Shown: positions 42,377 to 45,962 of the stretch, in pieces
Layout: each line of letters opens with the position of its first letter
How positions within the stretch are numbered: the stretch's first letter is position 1
NCBI GenBank assembly: GCA_022449455.1
Contig: JAKUPL010000004.1
Location: 124,001 to 188,000, forward strand
Length of the DNA: 64,000 nucleotides
Reading direction: 5' to 3'
Source: Alcanivorax sp.
GTDB taxonomy: Bacteria > Pseudomonadota > Gammaproteobacteria > Pseudomonadales > Alcanivoracaceae
Notes under the pieces: model-generated
What the model saw: only the letters and a program-made list of their open reading frames with translations
Databases searched by the model: none
Told to the model about the DNA's origin: nothing
Position numbers and translations under genes: made by a program

Positions 42377-44491
42377 TCAGACGCCGTATTCCTGTTCCAG
42401 GGCCCGGCGACGGCGTCCCGCGGCCAGATAGCCGCGCAGCGCCAGCACGCCGTGCACCAGCAGCAACGCCACGGCGGCCACCACCCACAGCAACCGCGCC
42501 AGCGCCGGCCCGCCCCGGTCCACCCGTTCCGGGTCCAGCAGCCACAGCGGCGCGCCCTCCGCGGCGCGGTCATGGCTGACCACCACCCCGTCCAGTTTGA
42601 AACCACGCGGTTCGCCGGCCAGGGCCTGTAACGTGTCCCAGCGCCGGCCGCCCGGGTCCTGTTCCGGGAGTGCGATCAGGTCGGTGCCGTGCACCGCGCC
42701 GATCACCACGCCGCCTTTTTGTTGATCGGCCAGGGATTCGGCCAGCTGCCCGGTGAGCGGCCGCAGGCGCTGTTCCGCCACCCGCCGCATGACGCCACGC
42801 AGGTTGTCCAGGCGCCCCTGCAGGGCCACCGCTTCCCGGTGCTGTGCGTCGTCCTCTTCGGCCAGCCGCCGGCGCAGGGTGGCCCAGTCCCGTTCCTCCG
42901 GCGCCGCTGGAAAATAGAGGGTGGCGAGCGCCCGGCGTCGCAGCTCGGCGCAGGCCCGGTCGCCATCGTCCGGGCAGGCCTCCTCGATGGACGCCAGCAC
43001 CGCGCGGGCGTTGCTCACCACCAGCGGCCGGCGGTCGCCGGTGCCGCCGCCGCGCATCATCGCCATCACCTCCAGGGAGCGTTCCCGGCGGGTTTCCAGC
43101 ACCTCGCCGTCGAGCAGGGAGCGGGTCAGCGGGTCCATCTCCAGCGCCGGCGCGGTGAGCGTATCCCCGCCCCAGCGGACCCGGTCGCAGCGCACCCGGG
43201 CCGGATCGTCGGCCACCTGGCAGCGGCCCTCGCCATTCAGGATCAACCGGCGTCCCACGGCCGGTGGGTGGGTGGCCAGCGACGCCGGATCGTCCACCGG
43301 TAAGGGCCCGGCACCGGCCAGCCACTGGCCGGTCTGCGCCGCGTCCAGCAGCGGCCGGGCCGGGCCCAGCAGAGCGGCGGCCAGCGCCACCAGCCCCACC
43401 AGGGCCAGGGACAGATGGCGGCCCCAGTACACTGGCGGATGGCGCCGCTGTTCCTCGTCCACGGAAAAACGCCGCCCCGGTGTATTGGCCTCCGAATAGT
43501 CCACCACCGAGTAGTCGTCCACGCGCAGGCCCAGGTCCAGCCGCCGGTCCTGTTCCAGCTCGATGTGCGGGCGCCAGTGGTCGGGCAGGGAGAACGGAAA
43601 CTTGTCGCCCAGCACCGGCGCCACGGAAACGGTCTGTCGCTGCTCATCCACCGATATCGGCATCAGGTTCAGATAACCGGTCACCCGGTTGACCTTGCCC
43701 GCCGGCCCGGGTCGCCAGCGTCGCCAGAACAGCCACAACCCGAGGGCGGCGCCGACCAGGGCCAGCGCCGCCCACAGGCCCAGCCAAAGCGTGCTCTGCC
43801 GGCTGGCGGCCAACGCCACGGCGATAAAGGCCAGCGACCAGCACAATCCGGACAACAGGCCCAGACCGCGCCCCTGGCGCGCTTCGATCTCCGCCGGGGT
43901 TTCGTCCCGCTGGTGCAGGATCTCCACCCGGTGACGGTCCTCGGTCGCCGGGTCCCCGGGCGTCTCTTCGTCGTCCAGGCTCACGTCCTGCAGATGGCCG
44001 GACTCACCACGTTGCCATTGGTCGCGGGCGGTTTCGCGGCGCTGCTCGCGGGCGGCGCCTTCCAGCAGTTCGAAGTCATTGAGCCGCACCACCACCGCCA
44101 GCTTGTCGGCGAACACCACCTCGGCCTCGTTGTCCCGGTCCAGGAAGTGCTCGGCGTCGAACGGCAGGATCACCTCCACGCCGCCGATCATGTGGTGCCA
44201 GGTCTGGTTGCCTTGGTTGCTGATGCCGTGGCGGTGGTAGGCGCCACGGAGTGGAAACACCTCCTCGCTGTGCAGGCGCACCGGCTTGCCGGGGCGGTCC
44301 GGACGGAACAGAAAGGGCGCCAGGGCCTGCCGCTCGTCCAGCGACAGGCGCCGCAGCGGCTCGGCACGGCCGCGCAGCTCGGTCAGTTGCCGGGCGCTTT
44401 CGCGCTTGCGGGCGGAATACGTCAGGGCGGAATACAGGGAGGTGAGGACCACCACCAGCAGCAGAATGAACTTCAGGACCAGAAGGACCAT
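42377..44491 (-). CDS. IgaA/UmoB-family inner-membrane protein
   Basis: Homologue of IgaA (YrfF), the membrane inhibitor of the Rcs envelope-stress phosphorelay in enterobacteria. 704 aa against 711 in E. coli as I recall it. Topology matches: one N-terminal helix (about 2-22), a helical pair (about 211-256), a fourth helix (about 359-377), a large periplasmic domain and a C-terminal helix (about 665-690). The cytoplasmic segment RHGISNQGNQTWHHMIGGVEVILP aligns with the IgaA pattern. Four periplasmic cysteines (424, 435, 506, 514) occur in two pairs, as in IgaA. Start ATG 44491 has AAGGAG 7 nt upstream. No Rcs gene is in the window, so its partner here is unknown. Confidence 0.85.
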   Translation of the reverse strand: MVLLVLKFILLLVVVLTSLYSALTYSARKRESARQLTELRGRAEPLRRLSLDERQALAPFLFRPDRPGKPVRLHSEEVFPLRGAYHRHGISNQGNQTWHHMIGGVEVILPFDAEHFLDRDNEAEVVFADKLAVVVRLNDFELLEGAAREQRRETARDQWQRGESGHLQDVSLDDEETPGDPATEDRHRVEILHQRDETPAEIEARQGRGLGLLSGLCWSLAFIAVALAASRQSTLWLGLWAALALVGAALGLWLFWRRWRPGPAGKVNRVTGYLNLMPISVDEQRQTVSVAPVLGDKFPFSLPDHWRPHIELEQDRRLDLGLRVDDYSVVDYSEANTPGRRFSVDEEQRRHPPVYWGRHLSLALVGLVALAAALLGPARPLLDAAQTGQWLAGAGPLPVDDPASLATHPPAVGRRLILNGEGRCQVADDPARVRCDRVRWGGDTLTAPALEMDPLTRSLLDGEVLETRRERSLEVMAMMRGGGTGDRRPLVVSNARAVLASIEEACPDDGDRACAELRRRALATLYFPAAPEERDWATLRRRLAEEDDAQHREAVALQGRLDNLRGVMRRVAEQRLRPLTGQLAESLADQQKGGVVIGAVHGTDLIALPEQDPGGRRWDTLQALAGEPRGFKLDGVVVSHDRAAEGAPLWLLDPERVDRGGPALARLLWVVAAVALLLVHGVLALRGYLAAGRRRRALEQEYGV

Positions 44492-44599
44492 GCCCGGCTC
44501 CTTGGGAAACAAGCGGGCATGCTAACGTATCCTGGCGAAGCGGGAAGCGCCGGGGCGGAAGAGGGTGATGCGGTTCACTTCCCCGCCGGGGCGGGCCGC

Positions 44600-44628
44600 A
44601 AACGAAAAGCGCGGCCCGAAGGCCGCGC
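44600..44628 (-). terminator. UUCG-loop intrinsic terminator (minus strand)
   Basis: On the minus strand GCGCGGCC (44628-44621) pairs with GGCCGCGC around a UUCG tetraloop and is followed by TTTTCGTTT. This ends the candidate small RNA, or attenuates transcription into the igaA-like gene 110 nt downstream. Confidence 0.85.
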
Positions 44629-44695
44629 AAGATTTCCAGAGACTCTCATATCACTCGAAATCGCACCCTTTGGCGTCCCGCCTCAAGGTGCGATT
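44603..44695 (-). ncRNA. Candidate structured small RNA or igaA leader
   Basis: The minus-strand stretch starts with a 9-bp stem (44695-44687 with 44667-44659) enclosing a smaller GGCG/CGCC hairpin with a GGA loop. A GATTTC/GAAATC pairing (44662-44657 with 44636-44631) would compete with the first stem. The terminator follows. Promoter-like boxes sit directly upstream. About 90 nt, no open reading frame of note. I do not recognise the family; it could be an independent sRNA or a cis-acting attenuator of the igaA-like gene. Confidence 0.5.
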
Positions 44696-44697
44696 AC

Positions 44698-44727
44698 AGG
44701 CTAGACCCAGCCGCTGTGAACTGTCAA
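44698..44727 (-). promoter_or_regulatory. Promoter for the candidate small RNA
   Basis: A perfect -35 TTGACA (44727-44722), an 18-nt spacer and a -10 TAGCCT (44703-44698) that keeps the three most conserved -10 bases. The same style of promoter (TTGACA, TAGGCT) precedes bioB in this window. Confidence 0.5.
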
Positions 44728-44782
44728 GCGACACTTTGCATCGACGGCAAACTTTTTGTTAAGGATCAGTAAGTAAGGATGA

Positions 44783-44802
44783 AAATGGGGTCTGTCCCCT
44801 TT
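44783..44802. repeat. REP-like palindrome (GGGG TCTGT CCCC)
   Basis: AAATGGGGTCTGTCCCCTTT forms a short stem GGGG/CCCC with a 5-nt loop and flanking A/T pairs. Sequences of this form recur in many proteobacterial genomes, often near REP-associated tyrosine transposases; none is present here and I see only one copy in the window. Confidence 0.45.
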
Positions 44803-44837
44803 GCGTAAAGAACAATGACCTTTGTGTCACCATGGGC

Positions 44838-45296
44838 TCAACCGCCGATCAGGCGTAGTTGATAGATGTTATGGCTGAGGGCCACCACCTCGCCGTGGGA
44901 ATCCTTGAGTTCCGTGTCCCACTCGAAGTCGCACTTGCCGTTGGTCTCCGTCTCGGCCTGGATGCGCTGGATCTCCGCCTCGGACAGGTGTACTTCCACG
45001 CTGATGTCGGTGGTGGCGGGCCGGCGGAACCGGATACGCATGTCCTTGACGATGGGGTAAAAGCGGCGCACATCGAACGAGGACATATAGATCACGCCAC
45101 CGGGCAGCTCCGCCAGGGTGTACAGGGCGCCAGCGTACATGATGCCCACATGGTTCAGGTTGGGCGCCAGCGGCATCATCATGCGGCAATAGCCCCGGTC
45201 CACGTCCAGGGTGCGGGCGCCGCAGCGTTCCACGAACGGAAAGGTCCGGTCCGACGCCGCTTTGATCTGTTCCTTTTCGGTTTCACTCAAGGTCAT
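44838..45296 (-). CDS. Hotdog-fold thioesterase-like protein (YiiD C-terminal/PaaI type)
   Basis: Probable acyl-CoA thioesterase of 152 aa, cytoplasmic. The helix segment NHVGIMYAGALYTLAELPGGVIY is the hotdog central helix region, followed by strands DMRIRFRRPATTDISVEVHLSE. The specific substrate is not evident. GGAGAA precedes the ATG. It is the third gene of a run phhB, decarboxylase-like, thioesterase on the minus strand, each separated by less than 20 nt. Confidence 0.75.
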   Translation of the reverse strand: MTLSETEKEQIKAASDRTFPFVERCGARTLDVDRGYCRMMMPLAPNLNHVGIMYAGALYTLAELPGGVIYMSSFDVRRFYPIVKDMRIRFRRPATTDISVEVHLSEAEIQRIQAETETNGKCDFEWDTELKDSHGEVVALSHNIYQLRLIGG

Positions 45297-45311
45297 GGGG
45301 TTCTCCTGCCG

Positions 45312-45962
45312 TTATCGGTGCGGCTCGGTGCGCGCCACCGGGAAGTGCATATGGAAGTCCGGCAGTGCCAGGGCGCCCCGGGAGCGGCCCGTCTGCAGGG
45401 AAGGAAAGTGCTCGCCGTCGCCGCGCGCCTCGCGCAGCCGGGCGAGGCCCAGCCGCCCGCGCACCGACGGGGTATAGAGAAAGCGCTGGCCGTCGCGGAT
45501 CTGGCCCAGGGTGCGCCAGCCCGCCGGCAGCAGGCCGCCGGGAAAAGGCAGGGCCGGGCCCAGCCGGTCCAGGGTCAGGGCGGCGATCTCCCGGTCGTGG
45601 TAATGCACCGCCACCTGCTCGCGCCGGCCACGGCGCTGCCAGTCGAAGCGCGCCACCCGCTTGTCCAGCCCCCAGTTACGGTTGCCGTTGTCGGCGCTGT
45701 CCTGGCTGGACACATAAATGCGGCCGATGCTCCAGCGCAGTCGGCCATCGGCAAACCGGAACGGGCCGGGCATGAACAACAGCTCCTGATAGGGGCCCAC
45801 CTCGGAGCGCCGGTAATCCACCAGCATCACCAGGGCCGGCCCGCGCACCGGCTCGCCCAGCTCCGCGGCGGCGCCGCCCTGCTGGTGGCGCAGCGACGCG
45901 GGCAGGGCCAGGGCGGCCACGAAGGCACGGCCGCGCAGTTGCCAGGGAGCCGGCGCGTCCAT
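45312..45962 (-). CDS. Acetoacetate decarboxylase-like protein
   Basis: Protein of 216 aa with the layout of the ADC superfamily: VMLVDYRRSEVGPYQELLFMPG, then RLRWSIGRIYVSSQDSADNGNRNWGLDKRVARFDW, then a late ALALPDFHMHFPVART. In true decarboxylases an active-site Lys forms a Schiff base; I cannot place one with certainty here, although the LDK triplet occurs at the right region. Function should therefore be read as family level. The start overlaps the phhB stop by 1 nt, so translation is coupled. Confidence 0.6.
   Translation of the reverse strand: MDAPAPWQLRGRAFVAALALPASLRHQQGGAAAELGEPVRGPALVMLVDYRRSEVGPYQELLFMPGPFRFADGRLRWSIGRIYVSSQDSADNGNRNWGLDKRVARFDWQRRGRREQVAVHYHDREIAALTLDRLGPALPFPGGLLPAGWRTLGQIRDGQRFLYTPSVRGRLGLARLREARGDGEHFPSLQTGRSRGALALPDFHMHFPVARTEPHR

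Follow-up and report, generated by a model that had tools for sequence, protein, structure and literature searches.

A predicted trans-acting antisense small RNA complementary to the translation start of a secreted PraA/PraB-like protein in Alcanivorax and Alloalcanivorax

Results

A promoter, three hairpins and a terminator downstream of a thioesterase gene

We analysed a window of 64,000 nucleotides from an Alcanivorax sp. genome (contig JAKUPL010000004.1). On its minus strand, a thioesterase-like gene and an igaA-like gene flank a short intergenic element with the hallmarks of a small RNA (sRNA) gene. In the order in which they would be transcribed, the features are:

44838..45296, minus strand: DUF4442/YiiD_C thioesterase-like gene (Pfam), directly upstream of the RNA, the syntenic anchor
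44722..44727, minus strand: -35 hexamer TTGACA
44704-44721, minus strand: promoter spacer of 18 nt
44698..44703, minus strand: -10 hexamer TAGCCT
44604..44697, minus strand: sRNA gene as modelled by covariance model R1, both ends inferred
44662..44692, minus strand: hairpin 1
44631..44662, minus strand: hairpin 2, the putative target-pairing element, with an invariant hexaloop AUGAGA at 44644-44649
44638..44661, minus strand: stretch antisense to the PraA-like mRNA start (AUUUCGA + GAUAUGAGAGUCUCU), from sequence complementarity
44605..44628, minus strand: intrinsic terminator GCGCGGCC-UUCG-GGCCGCGC UUUU, from the fold
42377..44491, minus strand: igaA-like gene, 704 aa (Pfam IgaA, E 5.6e-26 with a 702-aa query), its start read from the sequence

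An earlier sequence-only reading of the locus had pointed out the TTGACA hexamer, the 18-nt spacer and TAGCCT, and all are present at that place. Both hexamers are the same in all eight homologues that we found (see below), and the hexamers, their spacing and the terminator hairpin are kept as a unit in every one. The length of the spacer is fixed in the eight and its sequence drifts; such a combination is characteristic of promoters. TAGCCT itself is a weak -10 match, and a simple promoter scan of 43500-45500 listed none; a terminator scan of the same interval found the terminator of the sRNA and no other. We infer that the gene is transcribed, with a 5' end expected near 44691-44695 and a 3' end near 44605, giving an RNA of ~90 nt. 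Just 5' of the -35 hexamer, a GATGCAAA box (44735-44742, minus strand) is found in five of the eight homologues, with TTTCGC-AAA in the other three; it may be an activator site.

Folding of the RNA in the window predicts three hairpins, the third being that of the terminator, with a minimum free energy of -48.7 kcal/mol (z = -5.46), which none of 200 dinucleotide shuffles equalled. A comparable three-hairpin shape is predicted for all eight homologues, with z values between -2.6 and -5.9 and no more than 5 of 200 shuffles reaching the same energy; hairpin 1 is weak in the predicted fold of G003. Hairpin 1 has the 9-bp stem, which is perfect (AATCGCACC/GGTGCGATT), and the inner GGA-loop hairpin (GGCG-GGA-CGCC) of the sequence-only reading, and carries GGA in its loop in seven of the eight homologues. 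In hairpin 2, the AUGAGA loop is closed by GAU/GUC above a GAUUUC/GAAAUC stem, and the segment GAYATGAGAGTCT..GGAAATC is identical in all eight except for one C/T site and a CT indel. The terminator likewise has the UUCG loop and U-tract noted earlier (stem-loop 44628-44609, then UUUU), the U-run being just four U long.

The sequence-only reading had also proposed that a GATTTC/GAAATC pairing competes with the first stem. The pairing exists (44662-44657 with 44636-44631), but the competition is limited to 4 shared nt; with so little overlap, and with the terminator stem left untouched, there is no anti-terminator arrangement. Covariation, proposed as a check on the structure, was modest: a two-sided change occurs in just 1 of 23 consensus pairs. 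As for a small protein gene, no frame ending inside the RNA is common to all eight homologues, which differ by 2-nt and 4-nt indels.

The RNA was found only in part of one genus

In a search of 57 genomes, long DNA matches (E < 1e-15) were limited to the window's own genome and seven genus-mates; shorter matches in other genomes fell in the terminator part of the query. Covariance model R1, built from the eight homologues, scored at least 84.9 bits in eight of the 13 genomes of the genus (G000, G002, G003, G004, G009, G010, G011 and G012), the next best score being 29.1 bits. Among the other 33 genomes of the family it found nothing above 28.1 bits, and several of these weak matches were the terminator-only DNA matches. 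An exact core pattern occurred in 7 stretches among 84,980 species, in a collection that perhaps lacks the window's own genome; all were Alloalcanivorax/Alcanivorax records, including A. venustensis, A. marinus, A. profundimaris and A. gelatiniphagus. Viral contigs gave no match to the exact core pattern. From this distribution the window probably belongs to Alloalcanivorax.

Conservation is concentrated in the structured parts. Over all pairs of the eight homologues, identity averaged 92% in the hairpin 2 core, 94% in the terminator and 66% in the hairpin 1 segment, against 48% in the promoter spacer, 51% in the 60 nt upstream and 40% in the 60 nt downstream. Fourfold sites of the adjoining thioesterase gene were 71% identical in the same eight genomes, so the hairpin 2 core is more conserved than silent sites. 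The architecture of the gene and the constraint acting on it are thus established.

The class of the RNA had not been recognised from the sequence, and Rfam 15, the check suggested at the time, returned no family at the gathering threshold for the whole window and ten related loci. Four sub-threshold matches (a trypanosome snoRNA, ncS025, the L20 leader and ncS54) were judged to be chance. The best bacterial sRNA among them, RF02869 ncS025 (Burkholderia sRNA 25), has a similar hairpin-hairpin-terminator outline, but at 19.6 bits the match falls short of the gathering score of 46, so the sRNA is not a member. In the open-licence PubMed Central literature on small RNAs of Alcanivorax and Alloalcanivorax we found no description of it.

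Some genus genomes without the RNA carry other elements in the gap that follows the thioesterase gene. The corresponding position in G001 is occupied by a 117-nt element of three hairpins (L046 1317-1433, reverse) with TTGACG-18 nt-TAATCT and the same terminator, and a different core; we take it to be a diverged or replaced sRNA, and saw no specific pairing between it and the start of that genome's own PraA-like gene. In G005, G008 and G007 (L037-L039), the gap holds an unrelated hairpin-rich stretch common to all three, with GGTAACAATTGCATGGCGCCGTTACC and a terminator-like ACGGCCCTTTACGGGCCGTTTTTC in G005. This is perhaps another small RNA; Rfam gave no match on L037 and L039.

The RNA follows the thioesterase gene, not igaA

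The sequence-only reading had offered two interpretations: an orphan sRNA, or a transcription attenuator or riboswitch-like leader for igaA. The igaA-like ATG does lie close by, as reported (44491, 113 nt past the U-run), and igaA stands downstream of the RNA on the same strand in five of the eight RNA-bearing genomes (G000, G002, G003, G011 and G012). In the other three (G004, G009 and G010) the downstream gene is hemE, and igaA was not found in the genome. G004, which is 99% complete, is the firmest of these cases (G009 is 90% and G010 86% complete). Conversely, seven relatives (G001, G005-G008, G021 and G032) carry igaA elsewhere; the RNA core is absent around it, and model R1 has no strong match anywhere in these genomes. 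The thioesterase gene, in contrast, adjoins the RNA on the same strand in 8/8. The igaA-like gene of the window also has its own Shine-Dalgarno (SD) sequence, AAGGAG, read from the sequence, and the terminator lies between it and the RNA. Because synteny follows the thioesterase gene, the RNA is not an igaA leader; its independence from igaA is established, and the orphan sRNA interpretation is supported, with a likely target elsewhere in the genome.

IgaA-like proteins occur in 12 of the 57 genomes searched and in 10 of the 13 in the genus, at differing places, which suggests that igaA has been gained, lost or moved among genomes. A literature search on IgaA in Alcanivorax gave nothing relevant.

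A perfect complement of the core marks start sites in RNA-bearing genomes

The RNA core AUGAGAGUCU is antisense to sites of the form GGAGACUCUCAUG, running from SD to start codon. Its complement AGACTCTCAT occurs 34 times in the 13 genus genomes, eight of these being the RNA itself. We read 23 of the 26 other places, comprising all 19 in RNA-bearing genomes and four of the seven in the rest (G001, G005). Eleven of the 19 read GGAGACTCTCATG, an SD and start codon of an open frame, as did none of the four. Of the remaining eight, three belong to the leader that precedes a transposase-like gene (G000, G002, G003), three are single sites in G002, G011 and G010, and two are in G004.

GGAGACTCTCATG was then searched with at most one mismatch in the 46 family genomes. 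Perfect sites numbered 11 in the eight RNA-bearing genomes and 0 in the five other genus genomes; seven of the eight hold at least one, G012 being the exception. The 33 genomes of other genera hold at least 6. One-mismatch sites with SD and ATG intact numbered 21 and 20 in RNA-bearing and RNA-less genus genomes, respectively. As the one-mismatch counts are alike, the enrichment belongs to the perfect site (Fisher p 0.0036, indicative only, the genomes being related). Among all 26 one-mismatch sites in RNA-bearing genomes, one is the G002 thioesterase start; of the 25 others, all read, one is the start of the PraA-like gene in G012 and the rest were by eye unrelated background.

The 11 perfect sites precede six genes for PraA-like proteins, two for a secretory lipase, two for an exported protein of unknown kind and one for an acyl-CoA ligase. 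The lipase (Pfam LIP for the G002 protein, to which that of G003 is 92% identical) was found in G002 and G003 only, and the unknown exported protein, with no family match for the G009 protein, in G009 and G010 only; all four genes have the site. Both proteins are absent from every RNA-less genome, so they do not discriminate; starting with the same 13-mer, they may be secondary targets.

Three other candidates were set aside. The site at the G009 acyl-CoA ligase gene is missing from the closely related G010 (GGAGACTGTCATG) and was dropped despite a co-fold gain (-12.0). A GGAGACTTTCATG site in G000, G002, G003, G011 and G012 looked gene-internal and was taken as background. The thioesterase starts showed no strong pairing in the eight genomes (-12.0 to -21.5).

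The transposase-like gene, of RAYT type by eye, lies near the PraA-like locus in G000, G002 and G003, with core complements of 13-15 nt in its leader (L101 near 2000-2930, reverse; L102; L106 1350-2437). A second near-complement, GACTTTCATATCACTCGAAAA, lies ~150 nt further up in G003 and is possibly a relic of a PraA-like start.

Predicted pairing with the PraA-like start exceeds most controls

The duplex that we infer would form in the cell is most extensive in G000, where RNA AUUUCGA-GU-GAUAUGAGAGUCUCU faces target GGAGACUCUCAUGUC-UA-UCGAAAU: 15 bp, including two G-U pairs, are followed by a 2x2 loop and a further 7 bp, of which the co-fold keeps 5. The total is as many as 22 bp, from the SD to codon 5. 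The target search had used only 10 of these positions, and the outer pairing played no part in it. This outer pairing into the coding region is present in four of seven targets and missing in G002, G012 and G010.

Duplex energies of the RNA with its own target segment were -35.3 in G000, -36.4 in G011 and -28.1 in G004, the three of the eight RNAs for which backgrounds were computed. With 301 other SD-ATG starts, a background that includes RNA-less starts and is rich in near-matches gathered for the question, the means were -16.7, -15.8 and -14.4, respectively, and none of the 301 was as good in any of the three. Against 1000 shuffled segments, the z values were -7.1, -8.3 and -5.9. The seven targets ranged from -22.0 to -36.4 and 11 PraA-like paralogues in RNA-bearing genomes from -8.8 to -22.5, the weakest target (G012) overlapping the best paralogue (G003). 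In the RNA-less G005-G008, the best-matching PraA-like gene starts GAGGAATTGATC-ATG (GAGGAATTTGATC in G006) and scores -10.0 to -12.2; G001, also without the RNA, has a near-match, GGAGACTGTCATG (AAGGAGACTGTC-ATG), whose scores with RNAs from other genomes are -19.8 to -24.7.

RNA and target also differ together between clades. Where the RNA has UUUCC, not UUUCGA, the target has AUGGAAAU, not AUCGAAAU (G004, G009), so that GGAAA faces UUUCC in these genomes and UCGAAA faces UUUCGA in G000 and G011. The G011-type RNA scores -33.0/-36.4 on the G000/G011 targets and -29.6 on those of G004/G009; the G004-type RNA scores -28.1 on the G004/G009 targets and -24.2/-23.6 on those of G000/G011. Each type thus scores best with the targets of its own clade. 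G010 has a G004-type RNA, yet its target lacks the matching GGAAA, and the co-change may be a single event.

When internal structure was counted, the picture became more uneven. Net co-fold gains were 22.4 kcal/mol in G000, 15.6 in G011, 14.3 in G009, 12.3 in G002 and 10.8 in G004; at 4.7 and 0.0, G010 and G012 showed nothing beyond shuffled controls, so for two of the seven targets there is no excess. The controls, 60 mononucleotide shuffles per mRNA, averaged 1.5 to 4.0 with a maximum of 11.7, and at least one shuffle (11.2) beats the G004 target. Gains at other sites are comparable: 8.0 and 9.3 for the lipase, 12.2 for the unknown exported protein, 12.0 for the acyl-CoA ligase and 11.8 to 12.6 for the transposase-like leader. 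Co-folding alone therefore singles out the PraA-like genes in G000, G011 and G009 only. Overall, complementarity to a trans-encoded mRNA start, established here with its controls, exceeds chance and is conserved, being weak in G012 and G010 and without an orthologue in G003.

The candidate target encodes a secreted-looking, fast-changing protein

The main candidate target is a secreted PraA/PraB-like protein, with a perfect site in six of the eight RNA-bearing genomes. The proteins have 176-209 residues, start with MS and look exported, with a signal-peptide-like N-terminus by eye. The six match NCBIfam PraA NF041561 (E 1e-12 to 8.2e-5), and PraB was matched as well, but at scores of at most 47.8 bits, far under the equivalog cut-offs of 150 and 120; Pfam gave no significant match. 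One report describes PraA and PraB as activating alkane oxidation, and slow growth of a P. aeruginosa praA mutant on n-hexadecane (PMC4542665). G003 keeps the RNA with no clear target orthologue; two of its PraA-like genes have a different beginning, with scores of -22.5 and -17.6, and the lipase site is present in this genome.

Taking the best PraA-like protein per genome, the mature parts are 23-42% identical for nearly all pairs, the exceptions being G012-G006 (83%), G000-G001 (70%) and G005-G007 (100%). By comparison, identity over the 60 nt around the start codon is 62-88% within the seven RNA-bearing genomes that have the gene, 57-72% between these and G001, and 30-48% between these and G005-G008. 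Protein bodies thus seem, from these alignments, to have been exchanged between species behind a retained start module. Such retention would fit selection for the sRNA address, and equally would fit simple recombination within the signal-peptide region.

Discussion

To judge from its conserved layout, the locus very probably holds an sRNA gene that stands alone, with a promoter and a terminator of its own. Given such a gene, the PraA-like mRNA is a likely target; given pairing, repression is very likely the sign of regulation, because the pairing covers the ribosome-binding site. We favour, with fair confidence, the whole reading: an antisense sRNA that acts in trans to block translation of the PraA-like protein. 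The gene, between the thioesterase gene and igaA (or hemE), would be transcribed from its own promoter. Hairpin 2 would present the invariant AUGAGA loop and nucleate on UCUCAU just before and at the start codon; it would then open, and pairing would spread from the SD as far as, at best, codon 5. The duplex would exclude the 30S subunit and so repress translation of the secreted protein.

The sRNA gene could instead have its main partner elsewhere, in a protein or other mRNAs, the PraA-like match being coincidental or minor. Retention of the RNA in G003 without a target orthologue, the lack of clear net gain in G012 and G010, and conservation of the 3' strand of hairpin 2 beyond pairing needs would all fit such a partner. 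The energy, shuffle, paralogue and clade controls, and the search-independent outer pairing in four of seven targets, argue against it, and we consider it unlikely. It is more doubtful still that the element has no promoter of its own and is the trailing part of the thioesterase transcript, 3' UTR plus terminator, which might be processed to an sRNA: its constant position directly 3' of that gene and the single terminator in the scanned interval would suit this proposal, which is compatible with the same target, but the invariant -35 and -10 hexamers at fixed 18-nt spacing around a drifting spacer speak for a separate promoter.

An sRNA that sequesters CsrA/RsmA is very improbable. Hairpin 1 does have its loop GGA in most homologues, and hairpin 2 holds one GGA; CsrB/RsmZ-type RNAs, however, expose several (AN)GGA motifs, and here there are just one or two GGAs, with a single one in a loop, lost in G003 and in the form ANGGA in G004, G009 and G010 only. 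A. dieselolei, moreover, has CsrR1 and CsrR2 with many GGAs (PMC9788540). A leader for igaA is the least credible alternative, its adjacency to igaA in five genomes notwithstanding, given the genomes that have one without the other, the strong terminator that ends all eight RNAs and the absent anti-terminator pairing.

MicA, RybB and OmrA/B are encoded in trans and, by base-pairing with mRNAs of envelope proteins, occlude the ribosome-binding sites of these mRNAs. Like them, the antisense sRNA proposed here would come from a short intergenic gene with a promoter and an intrinsic terminator, is complementary to the SD and start codon, and has envelope or secreted proteins as predicted targets. 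Unlike them, it would present its seed in a hairpin loop, where theirs is in a free 5' end, and it has a longer potential duplex (up to 22 bp, in G000), a short U-run and no Rfam match. A long U-tail is usual with Hfq, and the terminator here ends in UUUU(C) only; Hfq exists in A. dieselolei (PMC9788540), and any role for it here would be conjectural. The same report maps 549 sRNA candidates in Alcanivorax dieselolei B-5, which resemble the present RNA in coming from the same broad genus, in being intergenic, many with sigma-70-type promoters, and in a link to alkanes. The clade that we take to be dieselolei-like (G005-G008) differs in having no such sRNA by the model R1 search.

The predicted sRNA would represent a new family of a known kind of regulator. 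As a more tentative proposal, which we hold to be possible but rather less than probable, the sRNA would constitute, together with the first 60 nt at the PraA-like start, a regulatory address specific to each clade: species would exchange the secreted part and keep the start module that their sRNA reads. If so, variants of a fast-changing surface protein would come under the control of the resident sRNA on arrival. The joint clade difference in RNA and target, together with the exchange of bodies behind a fixed start module, offers a tractable case of sRNA-target co-evolution. An sRNA family without an Rfam match gains a concrete, mutationally testable target in oil-degrading marine bacteria and, as the target is kin to proteins of alkane use, the sRNA may adjust the surface of the cell when oil is present.
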